28,503 nt of DNA. It comes from a virus. Each line of letters opens with the position of its first letter. Within the stretch, counting starts at the first letter, position 1. The notes under the pieces were generated by a model that saw only the letters and a list, made by a program, of their open reading frames with translations, had not been told where the DNA came from and searched no databases. A program made the translations under genes and the position numbers. The DNA is taken from positions 1 through 28,503 of IMG/VR virus record IMGVR_UViG_3300025687_000234; one strand, 5' to 3'. Shown here one piece after another: positions 4,484 through 26,092 of the stretch.

Positions 4484-4698
4484 TCTTTCCCTTTCTTTGT
4501 CTTACGTCTTTCAGCAGAAGCCACCAGTCTCCGAATAGTTCTTTGGGACTTATAGACATCTGTAAATCCCTCACTACTTGGGGGTCTAGTCGGACCTACT
4601 GGGTAGAAAAGGGAAAAGTTTGCATCATCTGTTACCCTCCAAAAACCCTTTTCTGACTCCTTTGTCACAGGAGTTTTTAGTACATCAAGAATACTCAT
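4480..4698 (-). CDS. Hypothetical 72-aa protein with basic C-terminus
   Basis: The protein starts MSILDVLKTPV and ends in a strongly basic helix (SQRTIRRLVASAERRKTKKGKE), which suggests nucleic acid contact. The ATG at 4698 overlaps the upstream stop (ATGA), so I prefer it to an in-frame ATG six codons earlier. No known domain is recognised. Confidence 0.65.
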   Translation of the reverse strand: MSILDVLKTPVTKESEKGFWRVTDDANFSLFYPVGPTRPPSSEGFTDVYKSQRTIRRLVASAERRKTKKGKE

Positions 4699-6244: not shown

Positions 6245-6486
6245 TAGTCTTGGCTCCCATCACGTTTTGGTTGCTTCTTCCTGTTAGTTGTCTTGGACAC
6301 TACACGTACCTTGTTGCCCAACTTGCCTTTACGATTGGCACCAACATGATCAATTTCCTTGTTGTCCCCTTTCTTTACAGTGCCACGACGAAGGGCTGCC
6401 CGACGAACCTTATTACGTTGTGCTCGACGTTTCTTTTGTTCTTCAGTACCACCGTACTCCTTATATTCTTTCTTGTAATCTCTCAC
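6244..6486 (-). CDS. Small HNH-like basic protein, GTG start
   Basis: The 80-aa protein is very basic. The first half is an Arg/Lys helix (EEQKKRRAQRNKVRRAALRR) and the second half, DNKEIDHVGANRKGKLGNKV RVVSKTTNRKK, resembles the DH...N...(L/V)RVVSxxxNR core of small phage HNH proteins. The second His/Asn positions are partly retained, but zinc-binding cysteines are absent. It may be a DNA-binding or nicking protein. The start codon is GTG at 6486, overlapping the upstream stop as GTGA, with AAGGAA about eight bases upstream. Confidence 0.7.
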   Translation of the reverse strand: MRDYKKEYKEYGGTEEQKKRRAQRNKVRRAALRRGTVKKGDNKEIDHVGANRKGKLGNKVRVVSKTTNRKKQPKRDGSQD

Positions 6487-6965
6487 AGGTTGTATTCCTT
6501 TCCTTTTGGTTGTGGTGCTTCCTTGTCAGGCATTTTCAGTTGTGGAATTGGATGAAGCCTAAGTGGTTTATCCTTTTCGTAAGACCTTTCAAAGGGAAGC
6601 TCCAAGATCATTTGTTGTTTGTTCCTTTGTGCCTCTTGTAGCTCTTCTGCAAGCTTCTGTACTTCCTTACTCCAATTGTATTTGTACAGCCTTGGTTCCG
6701 TATTGTTGCCCCACAAGAGAAGAACTAGAAGGGCTTTGTTAGGTATTGTATAGTGCCCCAATACTGCAGCTTCTTTAGGATTTTCGAAGAACTCATACTT
6801 GACATCCTTAGCCCTTGACATTGCATCATAGTAGATGATTGGACCACTGAAGGCAACACTAATGAACAACAGAGTAAGGATAGTTTTCTTGATTGTCCCA
6901 CTAATACCTAACAACCCATAAATAAGGATTGACAAGAGGACAACATATCCGGCTATGTATAGCAT
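6483..6965 (-). CDS. Membrane protein with two N-terminal TM segments (stator-cassette partner)
   Basis: The 160-aa protein begins with two hydrophobic segments (about residues 2-22, YIAGYVVLLSILIYGLLGI, and 27-47, IKKTILTLLFISVAFSGPII). A soluble C-terminal part follows, with a predicted helix (NWSKEVQKLAEELQEAQRNK) and a Pro-rich end. The ATG at 6965 has AGGAG six bases upstream. It directly follows the ExbD-like gene, so it may be a third component of the same membrane complex, but no family is recognised. Confidence 0.75.
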   Translation of the reverse strand: MLYIAGYVVLLSILIYGLLGISGTIKKTILTLLFISVAFSGPIIYYDAMSRAKDVKYEFFENPKEAAVLGHYTIPNKALLVLLLWGNNTEPRLYKYNWSKEVQKLAEELQEAQRNKQQMILELPFERSYEKDKPLRLHPIPQLKMPDKEAPQPKGKEYNL

Positions 6966-6966
6966 A

Positions 6967-7554
6967 TCATTCTCCTGCTGCTCTAATGTTTTCTTGTATT
7001 GTGTTGAAAGAATCGGCAATGTACTTACGATCATACAGAATAAACCGCGCTACTGTCAACTCCTGTCCGTAGAACTCCAATTCAGCATTTACTGCAAATA
7101 GTTGTACAGTCTTGGACTTGTCAGTCTCCTTTAGAGAAACAATCAACCGAATTGGTATAGGGCCTTTATACCCTTTGTTATTGAACAAGTGGGCATTGAC
7201 GATATACTCCCCGTCCGGTACTCCACGACTATAGATAATCTCTTCGTTCTTGTTACTCAAGTCATTGATACTACCAAGATCGTCTCGGAGTAGATTGAAG
7301 AGAGGGCCACCTTTGTTAGAGTACCCTACAGCAATCATGTCTGCTTCACCGCGAACCCACAAATCAATATCAGCATCAATAGTATCTGGCCATGCCAATT
7401 CGACAATAATATTTCCTTGGGCTTTAGGGTCGGCATCATTCAACTTCTGTGGTGGATTAATTATAAGAAGCATCAGGGCTGCCAGTACAAGAAATGCAAA
7501 GGCTAGGGCAAATCCCACATCTGCAAGACTCTTTTCATATCCCATGTCCTTCAT
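6967..7554 (-). CDS. ExbD/TolR/MotB-like membrane protein
   Basis: The 195-aa protein has a short cytoplasmic N-terminus, one TM helix (about residues 11-33, ADVGFALAFAFLVLAALMLL) and a soluble domain. Asp12 sits at the start of the TM helix, as the proton-carrying Asp does in MotB, ExbD and TolR. The soluble domain is not the usual ExbD fold. It contains DADIDLWVRGEAD and VPDGEYIVNAHLFNN, which suggest a beta-sandwich. The gene overlaps the ExbB-like gene upstream (TAATG), matching the usual exbB-exbD order. It is likely the peptidoglycan- or partner-contacting arm of a proton-driven complex. The motor role is inference. Confidence 0.65.
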   Translation of the reverse strand: MKDMGYEKSLADVGFALAFAFLVLAALMLLIINPPQKLNDADPKAQGNIIVELAWPDTIDADIDLWVRGEADMIAVGYSNKGGPLFNLLRDDLGSINDLSNKNEEIIYSRGVPDGEYIVNAHLFNNKGYKGPIPIRLIVSLKETDKSKTVQLFAVNAELEFYGQELTVARFILYDRKYIADSFNTIQENIRAAGE

Positions 7555-7967
7555 TATGGTTTCCTTCCGAACTCACTCCACAGAATCAAGTTACCACCAA
7601 GTGCGATGTGAAAGAACAGGGCTGTAATTGTAGTCCAGATTGCTGCGCCAATGCCAGTAAGGATACCGCTGATGACAGGAGCAACCATGCTAGGTTCCAG
7701 ACTGTTGCTGTTAATACCGCTGAAGGCAATAAAGATGCCGTAGATAGTACCAATCAAGCCTAGCCCAAGCATAGTATTCATACACCAGATTGTAAAGTTA
7801 TTTTTCTTGGTCATAAAGACTGAAGCCAACCCTACTGCAAAGACAACTGCAATAGCTTCTAGAATATGCAGAATATTGTTGCTATATGCTGTTGCAAGAA
7901 TACCAATCGTATACAGATAGTACAGGATTGACACTAGTGTGATGTTAAAGACAATGTTGTAAGCCAT
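7554..7967 (-). CDS. MotA/TolQ/ExbB-like proton-channel protein
   Basis: The 137-aa protein has four hydrophobic segments (about 4-25, 32-52, 62-83, 98-128). The last two contain the family signature: LGLGLIGTIYGIFIAF (residues 68-82, with the conserved GT) and ISGILTGIGAAIWTTITALF (99-118, with the conserved Thr pair). This is how MotA, TolQ and ExbB line the ion path. It is much shorter than ExbB or TolQ (about 230-245 aa) because the cytoplasmic loops are nearly absent, so it is a minimal version. The next gene encodes the ExbD-like partner. The start overlaps the upstream stop (TAATG). Confidence 0.75.
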   Translation of the reverse strand: MAYNIVFNITLVSILYYLYTIGILATAYSNNILHILEAIAVVFAVGLASVFMTKKNNFTIWCMNTMLGLGLIGTIYGIFIAFSGINSNSLEPSMVAPVISGILTGIGAAIWTTITALFFHIALGGNLILWSEFGRKP

Positions 7968-8122
7968 TAGAAAACTGTCCTCACTAAATTAATTACTAGT
8001 GTGCCAACAAAGACACCAACAAGAGAATACAGAATAACATCTTCGATATCTGACTGAGGTTGTTCTTGTGCACCATATCCATCCTTGTCAAGGCTTTCTG
8101 GTTCGTCATCAAATTTCATCAT
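7967..8122 (-). CDS. Small tail-anchored membrane protein
   Basis: The 51-aa protein has an acidic N-terminus (KFDDEPESLDKDGY) and a C-terminal hydrophobic helix (IEDVILYSLVGVFVGTLVIN followed by LVRTVF), so it looks like a C-tail-anchored protein. The start is uncertain among ATGs at 8128, 8122 and 8119. AGAGG sits six bases before 8122. It precedes the ExbB-like gene with a TAATG overlap. Confidence 0.65.
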   Translation of the reverse strand: MMKFDDEPESLDKDGYGAQEQPQSDIEDVILYSLVGVFVGTLVINLVRTVF

Positions 8123-8294
8123 CTTCATCCTCTTCATAGACTTTCTTAAACCACTCTTTTGTGGACAAGCGTTCATAACGTTTACGTTCGCTTTCTACTC
8201 GTTTTAGTCGTAGGGACTTATCTTTATGTAGGGCTTCGGCATGTCTATTACGAAACTTCATAGCCCTTTTCCCTCTTGTCTCTTCGTCACTCAT
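8109..8294 (-). CDS. Hypothetical charged 61-aa protein
   Basis: The protein is hydrophilic, with a basic first half (KFRNRHAEALHKDKSLRLKR) and an acidic C-terminus (YEEDEDDEI). It is likely a single long helix that contacts nucleic acid or an acidic partner. It overlaps its upstream neighbour by eight bases (ATGAGTGA). The function is unknown. Confidence 0.65.
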   Translation of the reverse strand: MSDEETRGKRAMKFRNRHAEALHKDKSLRLKRVESERKRYERLSTKEWFKKVYEEDEDDEI

Positions 8295-8514
8295 CGTAGA
8301 ACCATCCGACCAAAAAACCTATGATTACCATACCTACGCTAATGACAATAATCAAAGTCAATAGATGAGACATTGGGGCGATAATACCAAAGCTCTCAAT
8401 AAAAACCAGAGTTTTACTCAAAACAAATACAAGTGCAAAAGCGGCGGCAACCAGAATACATGTCCACAAAAGGGCCAGTCCCGCCCCAATCAAACCTCTT
8501 TTAAGTCTATCCAT
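8287..8514 (-). CDS. Small membrane protein with two TM segments
   Basis: The 75-aa protein has two hydrophobic helices (about residues 8-36 and 46-71) separated by a short loop, a positively charged N-terminus (MDRLKRG) and an acidic end (WFYDE). By size and topology it could be a holin, but no endolysin gene is near and it begins a run of membrane genes with the ExbB/ExbD-like pair, so a role in that complex is equally likely. The start overlaps the upstream stop (TAATG). Confidence 0.7.
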   Translation of the reverse strand: MDRLKRGLIGAGLALLWTCILVAAAFALVFVLSKTLVFIESFGIIAPMSHLLTLIIVISVGMVIIGFLVGWFYDE

Positions 8515-18805: not shown

Positions 18806-19095
18806 GTGTACAATTCCTCATATTGTTTGTCAATCTGTATTGTAGCTGGTTTCAAGAGGCTTTCCAATTTAGGGACAAAATCATACTGTTTTAAGAGGTG
18901 ACAGACACTTATCAAGGCACGTATAAATTCTTCATCTATATTTCTATTTTGATTGGCATAATGAAACCAGAAATTGTGTCCCTGATTTGTGCTCATCCAG
19001 CTAAAAGCTCCGTAAAGTTGCTGACTTTGATCCTCTGTAAGAAGGTTATAAAAACTGTCTTTATGCAAACTATTGACAAGATTTACAAGAGACAT
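18802..19095 (-). CDS. Tail-tagged protein with a helical, non-SH3 domain (QIDKQYEELYT)
   Basis: The 97-aa protein lacks the beta-rich SH3-like pattern and looks helical (LVNLVNSLHKDSFYNLL, QSQQLYGAFSWMS, DEEFIRALISVCHLLKQYDF), yet it carries the same tail QIDKQYEELYT. This shows that the tail is attached to unrelated domains. The ATG overlaps the upstream amidoligase stop (TAATG) and the tail codons GAGGAA precede the next ATG. The function is unknown. Confidence 0.8.
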   Translation of the reverse strand: MSLVNLVNSLHKDSFYNLLTEDQSQQLYGAFSWMSTNQGHNFWFHYANQNRNIDEEFIRALISVCHLLKQYDFVPKLESLLKPATIQIDKQYEELYT

Positions 19096-19979
19096 TACAC
19101 TACCACTCTTTCTCCAAACTCCAAGACAAATGGGGACTTACCAAAATCATATGGGCAAACATATTTGCCAGTAGAAATACGCTTGGGTGCATCCTTGTAA
19201 TAATTGTACAGGCAGAAGACATTACTGTAGTTGTTGTCATAGCGATAGGTGTCTACAACATTGTGTCCAGTTGCTCGTGTAAAGAAGTCAGAAGAACTAC
19301 GAGAGAATGCAGCCCATACATCATCGATAGACCTGAAGGACAGAGCATAGTTGATTACACTATCAATAAGGTTAAGCCAACGATTAATTTCAGTGACATC
19401 TTTCGTACCCCTCATTTGACGAAACTCGATTGATCCAAGACGACCAATAGATGCAACGTTAAGGGCAGAATACTTGTACGTATTAAATGCACGTTCAGAG
19501 GCTACATAACTCCAATCCTGATCGACAACCTTCTTAAGGATATTCATGACATCTTCGGCATCGTACATACGGAGACAGAACAAATTACTTTGACGAGACT
19601 GTCCTGCAAATTCACTGATGTATGGTTCGACAATGTAGTATGTCAACAGCACTTGCAGCAATTGCTCATGGGTCCAGTTACAGACATTGACGTGAACGTG
19701 AGTGCTAGTACGTGTGCTGTCTATATAACGCTCGAAGAATGGCTCCTTCAGCAGAGTATCGACCTGCTCCATCAGTACCTGTTTGCTTTCAGGCTTACGG
19801 CTAATGAACTCGTAGCCGTATCCGCGAAGAGAGTTATCCGTCGTGGTTAGAAACCCATCGACGTAGTGTTCTCCAAGTGACCTTGAAAACTCCGCCTCAA
19901 TCTCAATTGCATATTGGCCAGAAAGTCTACCGATACGGCTATTGTACTTCTTGAGAACTGAACCAAGTGTATTAGTCAT
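19095..19979 (-). CDS. Amidoligase_2-type glutamine-synthetase-fold ligase
   Basis: The 294-aa protein has the Amidoligase_2 pattern: AIEIEAEFS (acidic metal-binding residues), TTDNSLRGYGYEFISRKP, THVHVNVCNWT (nucleotide-site His) and GSIEFRQMRGTKDV. These proteins use ATP to join a carboxyl to an amine. Iyer and colleagues described them as part of peptide-ligase systems with ATP-grasp and amidotransferase partners, and such partners are present here. Start at 19979 by ATGA overlap. Substrates are unknown. Confidence 0.85.
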   Translation of the reverse strand: MTNTLGSVLKKYNSRIGRLSGQYAIEIEAEFSRSLGEHYVDGFLTTTDNSLRGYGYEFISRKPESKQVLMEQVDTLLKEPFFERYIDSTRTSTHVHVNVCNWTHEQLLQVLLTYYIVEPYISEFAGQSRQSNLFCLRMYDAEDVMNILKKVVDQDWSYVASERAFNTYKYSALNVASIGRLGSIEFRQMRGTKDVTEINRWLNLIDSVINYALSFRSIDDVWAAFSRSSSDFFTRATGHNVVDTYRYDNNYSNVFCLYNYYKDAPKRISTGKYVCPYDFGKSPFVLEFGERVVV

Positions 19980-20593
19980 ACATCATACTCCTCTGCGTAT
20001 TCTGAAAGATTTTGCATCTGTTGGTAGTTATGCGGAAGGTTGACGCCAAACTTCACAAGATTGTTGTAATGAAAGTACATCTCACTCTCACTGTTATAGG
20101 TAATCCTACCGTCACGAATAGATGCAATACGATCATCCTGATAGTAGATACCATCTCTGCTAAGTCCATACTTCATGGAGATACCTTGAACATTGGCACT
20201 ACCGAGACCGTGGTGAATGGTTGCATACCTACCGACACGTATTTCTTCAAGACGTTCTAGGTTGGACTTGTAGCTTGGTGTAAGGACATGCTTGTTCAAG
20301 TTCTCATTCGTAATACCAACCTTGTATCGACGGGAAGGAACACGAGCAACAAAGTCATAGCCACTGCCCTTGCTCTTCTTCATGTAGCCAAGCTTAGGAG
20401 TATACAACTCAATGTGTGGGCTATACGTAAATGACATAGCATCGGAAGTATCCTTAGTCAGGTAGAACAACAGACCATCATCACGACGATGACCCAAAAA
20501 CGCTACTTGTGTTGGGATGATACCACCCAAGTCAGTCAGTACGTAACAGTTACATGCCTTTTGGTGAAACTCTTCGGCAGTTTGGAAGCGCAT
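19976..20593 (-). CDS. Hypothetical 205-aa protein of the ligase cassette
   Basis: This soluble protein lies between two amide-ligase genes, overlapping the Amidoligase_2 gene by four bases. It has an N-terminal helix with Cys pair (QKACNCYVLTDLGGI), strands LLFYLTKDT and HIELYTPKLGYM, and a central RYATIHHGLGSANVQGISMK with two His. No known fold is recognised. AAGGAG eight bases before the ATG supports a dedicated start. Its fixed place suggests it belongs to the pathway, as an accessory subunit or an unrecognised enzyme. Confidence 0.75.
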   Translation of the reverse strand: MRFQTAEEFHQKACNCYVLTDLGGIIPTQVAFLGHRRDDGLLFYLTKDTSDAMSFTYSPHIELYTPKLGYMKKSKGSGYDFVARVPSRRYKVGITNENLNKHVLTPSYKSNLERLEEIRVGRYATIHHGLGSANVQGISMKYGLSRDGIYYQDDRIASIRDGRITYNSESEMYFHYNNLVKFGVNLPHNYQQMQNLSEYAEEYDV

Positions 20594-20604
20594 GGATAGT
20601 CTCC

Positions 20605-21426
20605 TTAGTTGTAGTATTCGGGGACAAACGAAAGAACAGGATACATATGCTCTTCTGGTTTTGTCGTTGCAGCAAACTTGTGCTCAAGGTCCAGCTTTGC
20701 AGAGTCTAGTCCACGAAGGACACCAAGTGTCGTATAGAATACCTTGTGAATGGTATCCTTGTTACGAAGCCAAGCATTGCTCAGTGGACGATATTCCATA
20801 CCATATTTCTTGGGACGGAAAGAACCGGGAGCACCATAGAGAGTACGACGAAGGTTATCATCATCCCAAGACTTGGAAAGACCCAGCAAATACTTATCCA
20901 ACTGCTGGGCAACAAGACAACAATCGGCAATGTGTCCTTTGTAATTGGGGTCTGCATAGTTACCCTCACTAAGCCAAGAGATGTGGACGTGACCACTACC
21001 AGTACGAAATGGTTCTGTCGTCTGTGGCCGTGGGTTTGCTTGTCCTTCTTTGTAGGCATTGAAGTCAGGTTCACAACCCAATTCGAGAGTATGGGCAGGC
21101 AGACTATCAAAGTAACGCTTGTCAAACCTTGCCGTAGGAGTTGGAACCAATGATGCATTGGGGTTCTTGCGTATGATCATATCCTTCATTTGTCCGACAA
21201 CAGAGGTAATGTTCGTAAAGAACTGCTCGAAGTTATCGGTAGGATCGATGTTGAACTCTGCAGCCACACCATCTACCTGCACTGCACCATTACGTACGGC
21301 ATAGGGCCTAGCTTTTGTTCCGGGGATAAGAGGACCATCCCGTGTTTCGGCAGAGATGAATTGACCAGTCGTACGATCCTTGAGAAACAGTTCAGGATCG
21401 GCACCAAACTTGAATGCTGTTGTCAT
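20605..21426 (-). CDS. phiEco32-type COOH-NH2 ligase (type 2)
   Basis: The 273-aa protein starts MTTAFKFGADPELFLKDRTT and continues with GAVQVDGVAAEFNIDPTDN, LELGCEPDFNAY, TGSGHVHISWL, and PKKYGMEYRPLSNAWL. This is the pattern of the phage COOH-NH2 ligase type 2 family (GADPEL...QVDGVA.EFN), a glutamine-synthetase-fold ligase first named from phage phiEco32. It probably joins an acid and an amine using ATP. It is one of two GS-fold ligases in the cassette and overlaps the class II amidotransferase gene (ATGA). The substrate is unknown. Confidence 0.88.
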   Translation of the reverse strand: MTTAFKFGADPELFLKDRTTGQFISAETRDGPLIPGTKARPYAVRNGAVQVDGVAAEFNIDPTDNFEQFFTNITSVVGQMKDMIIRKNPNASLVPTPTARFDKRYFDSLPAHTLELGCEPDFNAYKEGQANPRPQTTEPFRTGSGHVHISWLSEGNYADPNYKGHIADCCLVAQQLDKYLLGLSKSWDDDNLRRTLYGAPGSFRPKKYGMEYRPLSNAWLRNKDTIHKVFYTTLGVLRGLDSAKLDLEHKFAATTKPEEHMYPVLSFVPEYYN

Positions 21427-22556
21427 GCGTTAACTCCTTCTTGTTTGACAATATCCTCTAGGTTATCTTTACTGAACCCATAGGACTCTAGGTTTTCTGA
21501 TTCTACACAATCAGTGCAGATGTATTCTTTTGTAAAGTGCAAAGCTGGCAAACCCTTGCTGTCAAGATTACAACTGATGTTACCACATACTGCACATGGC
21601 TTGTTTAGCTCTTTGAGAAGATCGCTTTCCGACACAATTCGATTACCGACCTTGTAGAAATCTTCCTCTTTGGGGGACTGATTGTTCTGCTTACCTTTGT
21701 CTTTGGTATGCGGCTGTCTTCGTCCGTTCTTCCAGTGTTCTGTGTCGTTGTAGTTCCAGTGTTGGGAACGAAAGGAAGCTTGTTGCTGCCCATAGGTATA
21801 ATACGTGGTGACAGGGGGCGAATAGTAGTTGGGTTGAACTATAATACGCTGATCACCATAGGCATTTGGATCAATGGTAATCAGTGCATGAGGTGGTACT
21901 GGTTCAATCTCATAATCCTTAAGGTCATTTGCACGATCTAAAGCTGCTGTCAAGAAACCCCTTTCAGATGCCCACCAAAGCTTGGATGTTTGTTTGTGTC
22001 TGGCAATGAACAGGGTACGAGAATGATTACGAATAAGACGGATACAATCATCGCGCCTATCGTACCACTGAAGGGCATAGGCCATGGATGTAGAATCCTT
22101 GTACACACTCTCCAAAGTTTCTTTGATGCCCTTGTCAGGAGCCTTGCTATTGGAATCTAGCAGGTTGTAGAAAGCTTCACTATCAGTCTCGTACTTGTCA
22201 CTGTCTTTAAACTTGCCGGTGATTGTACCGTTGTGCATACCAAGAAGACTGTTGGTTTTGAATGGGTGGTTGTTGGCAACTTCAATCTTACCGACAGTGG
22301 CATGACGAGAATGACCCATAAGTGATTTGATACGATCCTCATTCATGAACTTGTGGAACTCTGGGGTAAAGATATAGGCCGATGATGGAAGCTCACTATG
22401 ATCCCATTTGTAGTATGCCTTGTTCTTCTTGTCGAAGGTCATCACAGTACCACAACCATGAGCACCACGAAGGGTATTCATCATGAACAGTGTCTTCCAA
22501 ATCGTCATGTCATTCTTGGTAACGAACATGCCAGTAAATCCGATAAGACCACACAT
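21423..22556 (-). CDS. Class II (Ntn) glutamine amidotransferase-like protein with C-terminal zinc motif
   Basis: The 377-aa protein starts MCGLIGFTG, so Cys2 becomes the N-terminal nucleophile after Met removal. RGAHGCGTVM, GHSRHATVGKIEVANNHPF and LGMHNGTITG are the class II amidotransferase substrate motifs, as in PurF and GlmS. After about residue 230 a low-complexity Tyr/Gln-rich linker follows, then a Cys cluster (CAVCGNISC, then YICTDC). The last part is likely a zinc-binding add-on and replaces the usual synthetase domain. It could supply ammonia, or act as an amidase on a glutamyl product. Start overlaps the upstream stop (TAATG). Confidence 0.88.
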   Translation of the reverse strand: MCGLIGFTGMFVTKNDMTIWKTLFMMNTLRGAHGCGTVMTFDKKNKAYYKWDHSELPSSAYIFTPEFHKFMNEDRIKSLMGHSRHATVGKIEVANNHPFKTNSLLGMHNGTITGKFKDSDKYETDSEAFYNLLDSNSKAPDKGIKETLESVYKDSTSMAYALQWYDRRDDCIRLIRNHSRTLFIARHKQTSKLWWASERGFLTAALDRANDLKDYEIEPVPPHALITIDPNAYGDQRIIVQPNYYSPPVTTYYTYGQQQASFRSQHWNYNDTEHWKNGRRQPHTKDKGKQNNQSPKEEDFYKVGNRIVSESDLLKELNKPCAVCGNISCNLDSKGLPALHFTKEYICTDCVESENLESYGFSKDNLEDIVKQEGVNA

Positions 22557-23320
22557 TATTGAGTAACCTCCTTGAGGTAATTGGAGTATGTTTCAATTTG
22601 TCCTCTTGTTTCCAAGAAGGGCGTAAACTCAACAGACCACAACGTAGCCTTATTGGTATTCTTGCTGTACAAAATCTTCAAGACAACGAAGTCACAAGTC
22701 ACCATCTTGCGTAAGTCGTTAACAAGGTCTTGAACAGGGATGGGGATAGCCGTAACGGGATTATAGATGAAGCCATTAACCCTTGAACGATGCCGCCAAT
22801 TAATCTTGGACTTGTCTACTGCTACACCCTTGTCGTCATGAGCACGGAGGATTTTACGCTCCTTGTAGATGATTCCATGAGTGGTAGTCAGATGAATGCG
22901 ATACTCACTTGACTTGGGTATATATTGACGATGGACAGTAGCGCCCCTGAAGCCATCATCATTTGGAAAGAGCGTCTGTTCTTCATCGGCATAGGAAGTG
23001 CTGTACCCAACACAGCCATCCAGATTACCTGCAACTGGTGGTGGAAGCATCTCGTTAAGTGCAGCTTGAGTGGCACCAACACGAATAGGTCGATTGATAA
23101 CCTTCGTGTATTTGACTGGATTGTCTGGAAATTTTGGAAACTTGTCCTTGTACCCCCAATTGATGACTACATGACTGGCTGCCGGTACATAAGTACTTGG
23201 ACGACCAATATCCACTCCGGGTGGCACTATGATGGAAAATTCTCCACGGCAGTTCAGAGCAACTTCCTTGAAAGAAGCACCAATCTTCTTGGGAAAGAAG
23301 TATACTTTATTCTTCATCAT
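22556..23320 (-). CDS. Divergent ATP-grasp-like protein
   Basis: The 254-aa protein is likely a distant paralogue of the ATP-grasp ligase at 25244-26092. Matching points are SHVVINWG (VLFRWG there), VINRPIRVGATQAALNEM (NRAEAIHYVNDKRQSRKDF there), SSEYRIHLTTTHGII (AEYRVFVANGRVV) and DFVVLKILY...WSVEFTPFLE (DFGGVDVMV...CLEINSAPS). The metal-site Asn of the E-x-N motif reads Thr here (VEFTP), and DFGxxD is DFVVLK, so catalysis may be altered or lost. It might be a partner subunit. The start at 23320 has GGAG upstream. A second ATG is at 23317. Confidence 0.6.
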   Translation of the reverse strand: MMKNKVYFFPKKIGASFKEVALNCRGEFSIIVPPGVDIGRPSTYVPAASHVVINWGYKDKFPKFPDNPVKYTKVINRPIRVGATQAALNEMLPPPVAGNLDGCVGYSTSYADEEQTLFPNDDGFRGATVHRQYIPKSSEYRIHLTTTHGIIYKERKILRAHDDKGVAVDKSKINWRHRSRVNGFIYNPVTAIPIPVQDLVNDLRKMVTCDFVVLKILYSKNTNKATLWSVEFTPFLETRGQIETYSNYLKEVTQ

Positions 23321-23946
23321 TGCTTGCGTTCTCCAAGTCCGTAGCGATCAATGACATCAAAGAAATATGTCTCTGTCGGTTCATGACCATATTCTGGATG
23401 AGGTTGGAAGCATAGACACCTCGTCTCTTCGTAGAAACATACCTCTACTTCCTTGTCGTCAATATCCGGGACAACTTGCCTATCTGATTCTGCGCCTTCG
23501 TAGTATGTAGATTCCTTTGCCGTTGCAATAATAGTTGCATCATGGGTAGGCTTCATGACTTGGTGGTGGGTACTGGTTACTTCCAGAGGTTCATCCAAAT
23601 CGGCATCGTCAATCTGGTGGTTACCAGTATGTCCATCTGCATGTTGCCACATTGATCCACCACTTAGAGCGTTAAGTAGCTGACCACCACGACAAATACC
23701 AGCCATGTCAATACCCAACTTACGACATGATTCAAAGATTTTTACCTCTTCTTCATCTCTCTGTGGACTTGCATAGGTCTTGCGATTACGTTGCTCATTA
23801 TACAGATTGGGGGAAATGTCTGCCCCACCAGTAAAGACCACAAGACTTGCATTATTCATATGATTGACGACTAGCCACTTTCGCTTACGGAAGATGTCCT
23901 TAACTGAGCTACCAGTATATTTTCCAACTACATATACTGCTTTCAT
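23317..23946 (-). CDS. Class I glutamine amidotransferase-like hydrolase (PuuD/peptidase C26 type)
   Basis: The 209-aa protein shows VVFTGGADISPNLYNEQ, typical of gamma-glutamyl hydrolases of the PuuD type, the nucleophile elbow AGICRGGQLLN (Cys85) and CFQPHPEYG (His183, Glu185), so the catalytic triad is complete. Such enzymes cut gamma-glutamyl amide bonds or release ammonia from glutamine. Its place between the ligases suggests it trims or recycles a gamma-glutamyl product. The ATG overlaps the upstream stop (ATGA). Confidence 0.88.
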   Translation of the reverse strand: MKAVYVVGKYTGSSVKDIFRKRKWLVVNHMNNASLVVFTGGADISPNLYNEQRNRKTYASPQRDEEEVKIFESCRKLGIDMAGICRGGQLLNALSGGSMWQHADGHTGNHQIDDADLDEPLEVTSTHHQVMKPTHDATIIATAKESTYYEGAESDRQVVPDIDDKEVEVCFYEETRCLCFQPHPEYGHEPTETYFFDVIDRYGLGERKQ

Positions 23947-24797
23947 TGCATTTCCTTTGCCACTTGTTCAAAATTACCAAGAAAGTTACACAAGTCTTCA
24001 TGTGTGTAGTCCTTGCTCTGTTCCTTGAGTTTTTCGTACTTGTCGATAAAGAATGTCTTCATCTTGACCCCCTTCTTGACCCTTGGTAGTTTACTCATTA
24101 CGATCATGGGAAGCTTAGAACCCCCAAGGATATAATCATCAACACCTTGGTAACTTTGACTTGTACTCATCGGCTTGTGTTCCATATCCCACTCACCATG
24201 GTCTGGATTGAAGAACCTACCTGCTGCAATCTTCTTGGTGCGCCAACCACCAGCAGACAGAATAAAGCCATGACTAATACCTGTATGCTGCCCCTTGACA
24301 TTAAAGAAGTGAGCAAGGAAGAATACAAGACTTGGGTCATAGCCCAGACCCGTATACTTGACCCAGAATGGCAGGACAGAAGAACGGTGTTCATAACAGG
24401 TACGAGTGCCCTTCAAGAAGGCATTCATGACGTACATGTTAATCTTGTTAGTAGTACACAAGAAGCCAACAATACGGCCATTGTCCTTTCGGATTATGTG
24501 GAAGTCGTCACCAAGATAGTGAATCATTGAGCGAAAGACGGACCTTGGTCCAAAGTACCATTCAAGAAAGTCCTGTGCTCCGGGCTGATTATAACCTGAG
24601 ACAACACAACCGAATGCATTCGCCTTTCGGTAGGTCGTTGAAGTCATGTTAGCAGTGCAAGACGTACCTACATTTGTATTTACTGCAGTCTTTGTGGCAC
24701 TAACCAGAAGCATTGTTGTATGCGGGTCACCACTTTCTTGCATGAACTTGACAAGTTCCTTGTAGTTGTCATGCTCGGTGAAGGATTCTTTACTCAT
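23943..24797 (-). CDS. Hypothetical 284-aa protein of the ligase cassette
   Basis: The start MSKESFTEHDNYKELVKFMQ at 24797 lies inside the tail codons of the upstream tagged gene, with GAGG six bases before it. The protein has a mixed alpha/beta pattern, a Thr/Ser-rich part (TKTAVNTNVGTSCTANMTST), aromatic-rich segments (AQDFLEWYFGPRSVFRSMIH) and GISHGFILSAGGWRTKKIAA. I do not recognise a family. The constant association with the ligase genes suggests it is an enzyme or structural part of the same pathway. Confidence 0.75.
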   Translation of the reverse strand: MSKESFTEHDNYKELVKFMQESGDPHTTMLLVSATKTAVNTNVGTSCTANMTSTTYRKANAFGCVVSGYNQPGAQDFLEWYFGPRSVFRSMIHYLGDDFHIIRKDNGRIVGFLCTTNKINMYVMNAFLKGTRTCYEHRSSVLPFWVKYTGLGYDPSLVFFLAHFFNVKGQHTGISHGFILSAGGWRTKKIAAGRFFNPDHGEWDMEHKPMSTSQSYQGVDDYILGGSKLPMIVMSKLPRVKKGVKMKTFFIDKYEKLKEQSKDYTHEDLCNFLGNFEQVAKEMQ

Positions 24798-25020
24798 AGA
24801 GAGCCTCATATTTTGTGTCGATTTGTTGTCGAATTGGTTGCAGTTTAGTCCATACCTCACTGTACATACCGAATCTTCCACTTGGGTGTTCCGCCAAGAG
24901 ATATGAACCTGTCGTCGTATATCCACAAACAGTTACAATTTCTCCTTTGCGTATTATTTTACCCAATTTAGGATATACGTCATACTCACATCGAAACTTA
25001 TCACCAATTTTGTGCTTCAT
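24790..25020 (-). CDS. Tail-tagged small protein (QIDTKYEALYE), SH3/KOW-like
   Basis: The 76-aa protein begins MKHKIGDKFRCEYDVYPKLG, with GEIVTVCGY and GSYLLAEHPSGRFGMY strands, an SH3/KOW-like design, and the tail QQIDTKYEALYE. The tail codons GAG-GCT supply GAGG, and the next ATG lies in the last codons (TATGAGTAA). Its ATG overlaps the tail-like frame of the preceding interrupted gene. Confidence 0.8.
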   Translation of the reverse strand: MKHKIGDKFRCEYDVYPKLGKIIRKGEIVTVCGYTTTGSYLLAEHPSGRFGMYSEVWTKLQPIRQQIDTKYEALYE

Positions 25021-25058
25021 TCATACAGCCCTTCATACTCTTTGTCGATTTTGACTGA

Positions 25059-25247
25059 TTATTCGACGGGTTTCCAAAAACTACGAATACATCCATAATC
25101 ACGACTTTTTTCATCCTTAACAATAAAGTCATTAGAACTATTAACCCTTGTAATTATGGTACGGTAACCTTTCACTATGCCCCTATGAACAACATCACTA
25201 TTACTAATCCTTTCTACAACCATACCTACTTTTGGTGTCCAACTCAT
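25059..25247 (-). CDS. Tail-tagged gene interrupted by an in-frame TAA before the tail
   Basis: The frame encodes MSWTPKVGMVVERISNSDVV, an SH3-like VGM start, and ends FWKPVE at TAA (25061-25059). The same frame continues after the stop with SVKIDKEYEGLYE and a TGA at 25019-25017, in perfect register with the next gene's ATG at 25020 (ATGA). The tail is thus present but separated from its protein by one stop codon. One base change (for example CAA or GAA to TAA) would explain it. Stop readthrough or a sequencing error are the alternatives. The ATG at 25247 overlaps the ATP-grasp stop. Confidence 0.75.
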   Translation of the reverse strand: MSWTPKVGMVVERISNSDVVHRGIVKGYRTIITRVNSSNDFIVKDEKSRDYGCIRSFWKPVE

Positions 25248-26092
25248 ATTCTCGCCTTTTCGTCTAGTGATGGATGGATATAGCGCAAGTATTCCCCACG
25301 ATTAGCTGCAGGAATACGTTCATTGCCGTGTTCAATCATGTAGTCAAAGACCTTGGCAACACATGACTGTCTGTATGGGCTTGTCTGCGATGGGGCACTA
25401 TTGATTTCCAGACAATAGCATTGTCCATCTGGACCAACCATTACATCTACCCCACCAAAGTCAAGGGCAGTCATATTGAATACACGACAGGCAAGGTCCA
25501 CTACATTCAATGGCCATTCGCCCCAACGTACATTGTCGAAACGACCACCACGGGCTACATTCCATGCAATGTCTTGAGGATTACCGGGAGTCTTGCAAGC
25601 TACCCATACTACACGACCATTGGCCACAAAGACACGGTATTCTGCAATCTTTGGAATGAACTCACTGATGTAGTATGGTCCATTTATTCGTCTTGTGGCG
25701 TCCATTACTTGTCCGATGTTGTCGCACTTGTAAAGGCTACGACCTTGGGCATGACGCTGAGGACGTATGATGAACGAGAGCGGTGCTCCGATGACAGGAA
25801 CATTCATGTCTAGTTCATGATAATCAAGCCACGTCCTTGGAGCCATACCGGCATCGGCAAAGTCCTTACGAGATTGGCGCTTGTCATTGACGTAGTGGAT
25901 AGCTTCCGCACGGTTGAATGTACGACGGGCACGAGCATTGCCTGTGCAACCCCAACGGAACAAGACATCTATGTCATTGGGGATTGGGTCCCGGTCAAGT
26001 AGGACAACCTGTGTGGGATTGTTCATGTTGTCACGAATGTTTTCAGTGCTTGTCTTGCCGAGCTTACGGCGTCTCAGAATGATGTTAGTCAT
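25244..26092 (-). CDS. ATP-grasp amide ligase (RimK-like)
   Basis: The 282-aa protein has ATP-grasp landmarks: NDKRQSRKDFADAG (lid/lysine region), SFIIRPQRHAQGRSLY, YYISEFIPKIAEYRVFVANG (hinge and EYRV), LDFGGVDVMVGPDGQCYCLE and then INSAPS (metal-binding D and E-x-N). This fold forms amide bonds through an acyl-phosphate. The partners downstream (class I and II amidotransferases, two GS-fold ligases, a GGCT) match published amidoligase systems. The ATG at 26092 overlaps the tail of the upstream tagged gene, which supplies GAGGAG. The substrate is unknown. Confidence 0.9.
   Translation of the reverse strand: MTNIILRRRKLGKTSTENIRDNMNNPTQVVLLDRDPIPNDIDVLFRWGCTGNARARRTFNRAEAIHYVNDKRQSRKDFADAGMAPRTWLDYHELDMNVPVIGAPLSFIIRPQRHAQGRSLYKCDNIGQVMDATRRINGPYYISEFIPKIAEYRVFVANGRVVWVACKTPGNPQDIAWNVARGGRFDNVRWGEWPLNVVDLACRVFNMTALDFGGVDVMVGPDGQCYCLEINSAPSQTSPYRQSCVAKVFDYMIEHGNERIPAANRGEYLRYIHPSLDEKARI

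Follow-up and report, generated by a model that had tools for sequence, protein, structure and literature searches.

A probable three-subunit membrane motor shared by proteobacteria and phages, with a reduced ring subunit in the phage form

Introduction

A 28,503-base virus record (IMG/VR IMGVR_UViG_3300025687_000234; hereafter the window, that is, the whole stretch of DNA analysed) carries three adjacent genes, here called P1, P2 and P3 and together the trio, which an initial annotation took for part of a phage-encoded minimal machine of the MotA/ExbB-ExbD type. The locus raises the question of whether such a motor is really encoded there, which genes belong to it, how widely it occurs and what use a virus could make of it. 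Our analysis indicates that the trio represents a family of three-subunit motors, present in proteobacteria as well as in phages that infect them, which extends the known kind of motor. The family membership of P1, together with the exchange of a single membrane carboxylate between P1 and P2 in one viral sub-clade, argues strongly for reading these proteins as an ion-driven motor.

Results and Discussion

P1 as a ring subunit with little cytoplasmic part

By profile, P1 is classed as a reduced ring subunit of the MotA/TolQ/ExbB family, the family to which the initial annotation had assigned this 137-residue protein on account of its GLIGTIYGIFIAF and GIGAAIWTTITAL elements. The profile search against MotA_ExbB that it proposed agrees with this placement: PF01618 was matched by five of the six first P1 relatives and, at E<=0.01, by 44 of 52 diverse ones (best 6.8e-9). 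When the profile built from these 52 members was compared with the PDB, it retrieved MotA (5e-7), ZorA (2e-6) and TolQ (3e-4), as well as PomA and ExbB; a yeast oligosaccharyltransferase subunit (0.0036) ranked between the last two, and ATP-synthase c subunits appeared at 0.12. The pore-helix motif GxxG[TN] and the threonine of the last transmembrane segment (TM) are both present in P1, the window's pore residues being G73, T74 and T113. The glycine is kept in all 172 P1s and the next position is Thr in 136, Asn in 34 and Ala in 2, while the position of T113 is Thr in 171 and Ser in one (Thr in 72/73 viral and 99/99 bacterial P1s).

Only short extramembrane loops are found in P1, which ends eight residues past its last predicted TM. 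Its charges are two lysines in the loop before the GLIGT helix and one arginine and one lysine in the tail, a placement that points to a MotA-like topology. Between the start of TM2 and the GT motif the window P1 has 36 residues, compared with a median of 41 in viral and phage P1s (34-77, n=73) and of 85 in bacterial ones (35-121, n=99), where ten proteins, six of them in rhizobial loci (L080-L086), have 35. By this measure most of the cytoplasmic loop has been lost from phage P1s, as the initial annotation had held for the window protein. A tblastn search of phages returned no match with P1 and matches with P2. The annotated P1 of phage RHph_N3_19 (L004, 4475-4903) starts at 4565 and, with 113 residues, appears truncated; its open frame begins further upstream, as homologues do, and the annotation places a gene on the opposite strand across it.

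A membrane carboxylate on P2 that moves to P1 in one sub-clade

The start of P2 overlaps the stop of P1 (TAATG), and its product has the architecture of an axle, with only one TM, at the N-terminus, and an acidic residue close to where this TM begins. Both the overlap and the membrane Asp12 had been pointed out by the initial annotation and both hold, the aspartate being retained in 173 of 175 P2 relatives (73/75 viral, 100/100 bacterial). The only two P2s that lack it (L024 and L054) are partnered by the only two of 172 P1s with an acid at the position of the window's Ala109, which lies one helical turn before Thr113 and is Glu in this sub-clade. A motif count made independently of any alignment returned the same two P1s with Glu among 171 readable ones. 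A further scan added L233, L234 and L235, whose P1s carry Glu and whose P2 sites are Ala, Ala and Thr, with L236 and L237 alike. Across the sub-clade the P1 glutamate is thus constant and the former aspartate site of P2 varies between Gly, Ala and Thr. Since L024 and L054 form a starred clade in the P1+P2 tree and the five distinct pairs are taken as a single lineage, the swap probably happened once, and the vacated site drifted thereafter.

No other evidence speaks as strongly as this exchange for an ion-driven machine in which a single carboxylate is essential. The acid in the last ring helix recalls E49 of the ring protein GldL, a residue of its second TM helix, which the accessible part of PMC8986121 describes as protonatable and needed by the GldLM motor, its protonation controlling a motor of matching architecture. 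The window itself has the axle acid and Ala109 in the ring; a glutamate in the last ring helix combined with an axle devoid of acid, the GldLM-type arrangement, occurs only in the sub-clade of L024, L054 and L233-L237.

The periplasmic part of P2

The likeness of P2 to ExbD or MotB, as first proposed, stands for the Asp-bearing one-TM axle and fails for the periplasmic part. The proposed search against ExbD was run, and P2 gave no match to ExbD/TolR (PF02472), either for the window protein at E<=1 or for seven P2 members at E<=0.1; an OmpA/MotB-type profile likewise matched neither the window P2 nor seven members. AlphaFold2 predicts instead (predicted local distance difference test score, pLDDT, 91) a long helix at 4-32 and eight strands within 48-174 that form a beta-sandwich.

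This part of P2 is probably a DUF2135/YfaP-related beta-sandwich, with a TerD-like fold in the model. The P2 profile matches proteins of about 1000 residues in other proteobacteria that contain DUF2135 domains, and in a search of 12 genomes a PF09906 match fell inside a P2-profile match in all six that had PF09906 matches. On the window P2 itself PF09906 scored E=0.14, under the cut-off. The best fold match of the domain is TerD 3ibz (VIA Z 10.7, root-mean-square deviation 4.6, 144 residues), followed by 9a6r_B, which from its name SCP2 we take to be a TerD-family protein (VIA Z 9.3), and by third and fourth matches at 8.7 and 6.4. Membership of TerD proper was rejected: PF02342 did not match the window, hhalign of alignment A5 with eight TerD-family proteins gave a probability of 0.5% (alignments A4-A9 are subsets of relatives at <85% identity), and a second hhalign run, with the 175-row P2 domain alignment, gave nothing against that family. 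A Cas5d match of P2 (E 0.0024) was judged to be chance, as it covered one stretch and was absent from the two other P2s scanned. Nine residues are invariant across the 175 P2s (Trp55, Asp62, Asp64, Leu88, Arg90, Asp91, Asp92, Gly94 and Glu105), and the acidic cluster among them could bind metal.

P3 and the small flanking genes

The two TMs of P3 are joined by a positive loop, which would place its small C-terminal domain, followed by a charged tail, probably in the periplasm. AlphaFold2 models a small beta domain (pLDDT 81.5). Its match to oligonucleotide/oligosaccharide-binding (OB) folds, at VIA Z 7.6, is at a level that the tool calls common in the absence of a true relative, and the best Foldseek E value is 0.6, so that we call the modelled domain OB-like and make no closer claim. 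P3 was detected in 58 of 76 viral and phage loci at first pass and in 72 after iteration, the pick-ups of L020 and L031, which sit upstream, being doubtful.

P3 is part of the machine and the other small flanking genes are not. The flanking proteins noticed by the initial annotation are present, with two predicted TMs in the 75-residue protein, one in the 69-residue protein and none in the charged 61-residue protein. The upstream 54- and 61-residue genes were set aside as machine parts, as look-alikes (judged by eye) occur in N3_13 and also in phiM6, a relative of the window in which neither P1 nor P3 was found within the stretch read. Given this absence from phiM6, the trio is accessory there.

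The trio on chromosomes and in phages

A search of viral contigs with the P2 alignment gave 69 viral loci, including the window's own sequence on another contig (L011). Of these loci, found with P2 alone, 67 have P1 upstream of P2 and two (L033 and L034) lack it; the pairing is thus not due to chance. Among isolated phages every P2 match belongs to a Rhizobium or Sinorhizobium phage (22/22, 23/23 and 10/10 records with three queries), the genome sizes being about 60, 68 and 150-170 kb. Six trio-bearing records were inspected, and in these P1, P2 and P3 are labelled as hypothetical proteins or by p-numbers. The laboratory phage 16-3 of Sinorhizobium carries the trio (p038, p040 and p042), whose genes are not treated in the accessible part of the AP-16-3 phage paper (PMC10460002). 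Two rhizobiophage trios contain annotated endonuclease genes (Seg-like homing, HNH; L005 4165-4923 and L001 5469-6011), which interrupt the block at the P1-P2 or the P2-P3 junction.

The machine was first described as phage-encoded; a phage form does exist, but P1-P2-P3 is also a chromosomal operon in Alpha- and Gammaproteobacteria, besides its presence on viral contigs and in rhizobiophages. In the best 80 of 291 bacterial loci, P1 was found in 79 and P3 in all 80. P2 matched at E<=0.001 in 44 of 289 sampled Alphaproteobacteria and in 29 of 398 sampled Pseudomonadota, and at E<1e-40 in 35/289 (~1/8) and 16/398, respectively. The complete trio was present in 20/20 and 10/10 further chromosomal loci, which were hand-picked for strong matches on long contigs and not at random, and which include genomes of about 1.4 Mb.

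A P1+P2 tree was built from 113 of the 175 P2-bearing loci (those bearing P1, dereplicated at 90% identity, or 70% for L080-L159). The viral and bacterial states need six changes on this tree, five of them forced by starred branches, compared with a mean of 37.7 in shuffles, which indicates that the phage lineages of the trio have long been separate, with few exchanges with chromosomes. The placement of the window is unsure (end branch 1.88), its nearest neighbours being L015, L020 and L030 (SH-aLRT 93).

Layout of the locus in the window

The trio genes are listed in Table 1; all the genes of this block discussed here are on the minus strand. For P3 we prefer the ATG at 6965, one base past the P2 stop, because it is preceded within the end of P2 by a ribosome-binding site, AGCAGGAG, and because homologues begin there. 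PHROGs returned no useful family for P1, P2 or P3.

Table 1. Trio genes in the window
Gene	Position	Strand	Length	Description
P1	7554-7967	minus	137 aa	MotA/TolQ/ExbB-type ring subunit (by profile) without cytoplasmic domain
P2	6967-7554	minus	195 aa	Predicted axle subunit with a short N-terminus, a single Asp12-bearing TM and a beta-sandwich in the periplasm
P3	6483-6965	minus	160 aa (likely start, 6965) or 183 aa (ATG at 7034)	Third subunit, 2 TMs

Elsewhere in the window (19095-26092, minus strand) PHROGs matches mark a cluster of amidoligase, COOH-NH2 ligase, glutamine-fructose-6-phosphate aminotransferase-like and S6-glutaminyl-transferase-like genes, possibly a peptide- or surface-modification pathway.

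A proposed mechanism and its relation to known motors

By homology with the MotAB/ExbBD/TolQR class, P1 would form a ring and a P2 dimer the axle within it, presumably at the 5:2 stoichiometry of the motors reviewed in PMC9389320. Protons, rather than sodium ions, would cross by way of the membrane carboxylate (Asp12 of P2 in the window) facing the Thr/Gly face of the last two P1 helices, and their passage would drive a movement that is transmitted to the periplasmic beta-sandwich of P2. P3 would sit beside the motor, its own small domain lying in the periplasm. Because the phage form is almost devoid of cytoplasmic parts, both input and output are expected in the membrane and the periplasm.

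The trio shares with MotAB, PomAB, TolQR and ExbBD the ring helices with GxxG[TN] and the conserved threonine, and an adjacent gene for a one-TM partner with an aspartate at the start of the TM. It differs from them in that its 137-residue P1 lacks the cytoplasmic domain, P2 has no ExbD or OmpA domain and there is a third gene. The periplasmic domains of GldM are of beta type. The trio resembles GldLM and PorLM in having such a beta-type output in place of an ExbD or OmpA domain, but no sequence link to them was detected, the cytoplasmic tail is missing, a single periplasmic domain replaces their long shaft, and the hosts are Proteobacteria and their phages. Compared with Zorya ZorAB, P1 weakly resembles ZorA by profile and the trio has neither the ZorA tail nor a peptidoglycan-binding domain. 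The P2 profile finds DUF2135/YfaP domains (PF09906) in large proteins, from which P2 differs in joining its probably related domain to a stator axle; the TerD family (PF02342) provides the best fold match, which profiles do not support. A 2025 survey of stators reports A subunits with added domains of unassigned function and, in its accessible part, mentions phages only by way of Zorya (PMC12505986).

Neighbouring genes and possible roles

We consider it fairly probable that P1, P2 and P3 form one ion-driven inner-membrane machine and that it acts on the cell envelope during infection or lysogeny. Its likeliest single role, a choice that we make tentatively, might be superinfection exclusion or envelope guarding, exerted in many relatives together with a periplasmic HtrA-like protease. 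A gene for such a protease was found in 39 of 76 viral and phage loci, and in 36 of these it precedes P1 at a distance of no more than about 0.3 kb; the protease of L001 matches TIGR02037 (4.8e-18), and GxSG[GA] was seen in 27 of 29 members of the protease cluster. In bacteria it is present in 13 of the best 80 loci, nine of which are L080-L087 and L109, and in 0/20 and 0/10 of the further chromosomal loci. In phage RHph_TM3_3_14B the protease-P1-P2-P3 block adjoins an annotated attL. Lysogenic-conversion genes are common near sites of the attL type.

Several results weigh against this interpretation. The match of the window P1 to PF01618 (E=0.0015, 18.7 bits) lies below the Pfam cut-off of 22.9, and the TM profile of P2 alone retrieved no ExbD or MotB from the PDB. 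The chromosomal operons, present also in small genomes, imply that the core function is not specific to phages, and some of them stand beside quinoprotein genes, which points to envelope or redox physiology over exclusion. The protease is not in the window fragment and is absent from 37 of the 76 viral and phage loci. Finally, in many rhizobial temperate phages the trio lies behind lysozyme and endopeptidase genes, a position that a lysis role would fit too.

The chromosomal operons also figure in a reading that we regard as rather improbable and yet the best placed after exclusion or guarding, in which the trio is a host-derived metabolic or envelope-maintenance set: the operon would power a periplasmic or outer-membrane process, partly related to quinoproteins, which the phage copy sustains during infection. 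In its favour is the stand-alone operon in about one in eight of the sampled alphaproteobacterial genomes, including some of about 1.4 Mb. A gene for a pyrroloquinoline quinone (PQQ) alcohol dehydrogenase (phmmer to 1kv9, 7e-205) is found near the trio in 5 of the 20 chosen chromosomal loci (L197, L198, L199, L209 and L210), partly convergent with it and with few bases between, and in 1/80 of the other sample. A TonB-dependent receptor with YncD/PqqU matches lies beside one further trio (L225, 7906-10389). However, three of the five loci with the dehydrogenase are closely related to one another, and the gene occurs in 0/10 further chromosomal loci and 0/79 viral and phage locus files. In a scan of 57 chromosomal neighbours on the strand of the trio no Pfam family was recurrent (at most 2/57); confined to that strand, the scan missed the convergent quinoprotein genes, which manual inspection revealed later. 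Moreover, the deep separation of phage and chromosomal proteins argues against recent cargo.

Other observations on chromosomal surroundings concern L225, whose trio also has as neighbours a pair resembling a histidine kinase and response regulator and a gene for an exported protein, the latter recurring in 9 of 30 loci, and L194-L196, from genomes of about 1.4 Mb, in which mreC/mreD-, PBP2- and rodA-like genes (by eye) lie within a few kb of the trio.

A part in lysis is less probable still. It would account for the place of the block behind lysozyme and endopeptidase genes in the rhizobial temperate group, and for the small membrane protein that recurs upstream in 22 of 58 loci. Against it stand the existence of chromosomal copies and the location of the trio among replication and nucleotide genes in phages of the N3_13, N3_19 and Y68 types as well as in the window, where the module comprises DNA polymerase, primase-helicase, ribonucleotide reductase and, from DNA matches, a ThyX-like gene. 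This position favours early or middle expression and disfavours a pure lysis role, and suggests that the trio of the window is used before lysis. No early or late rule can be drawn for the trio in general, because its phage neighbours, in 25 loci, belong to mixed PHROGs (portal, terminase, exonuclease, endolysin), each in at most 3/144.

It is improbable that the trio is a Zorya-like defence module carried against other phages. ZorA is the best, if weak, defence match of P1 in PADLOC (7e-4 for the window, 2e-6 to 3e-6 for two relatives), besides being among the best PDB matches of the P1 profile. Nevertheless, the NCBIfam tolQ model scores alike for the window P1, all these scores being far below their cut-offs, P2 and P3 match no Zorya model, and the trio lacks the long ZorA tail and the OmpA-like ZorB domain, which the accessible part of PMC11890865 reports as important for Zorya. 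The idea that the phage counters Zorya by mimicry, put forward in the initial annotation, fares no better, as the resemblance to ZorA is weak and family-wide. More broadly, a reduced stator-family P1 that lacks a cytoplasmic domain could be imagined as a dominant-negative mimic, entering the TolQR, ExbBD, MotAB or Zorya complexes of the host or blocking them, but the conserved dedicated partners P2 and P3 and the co-varying carboxylate indicate a complete working motor rather than a poison subunit, and we hold this to be the most improbable of the five roles. Ranked in the order given, these roles leave a remainder that we assign to none.

Implications

A broader formulation, itself no more than possible when taken as a whole, is that the trio represents a class of three-subunit proton-driven motors found on proteobacterial chromosomes and in several unrelated phage groups, in which the phage ring subunit of ~130-148 residues has dispensed with the cytoplasmic domain and the carboxylate has once moved from an axle site, of which a motor has two, to a ring site, of which it has five, and that phages use it, often with a periplasmic protease, against competitors or for envelope control. 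In the open-access literature we found no phage-borne motor of this kind, an absence that carries little weight, given that scope. The trio adds to the ion-driven motors a phage-encoded member with a third subunit. As its phage ring subunit keeps little beyond the membrane helices, it may approach a minimal motor and be useful for reconstitution. Through the swap sub-clade it becomes testable, by a two-residue exchange, on which subunit the proton site has to lie and how many such sites a motor requires. On chromosomes, the same operon constitutes an as yet unassigned envelope machine in about one-eighth of the sampled alphaproteobacterial genomes.

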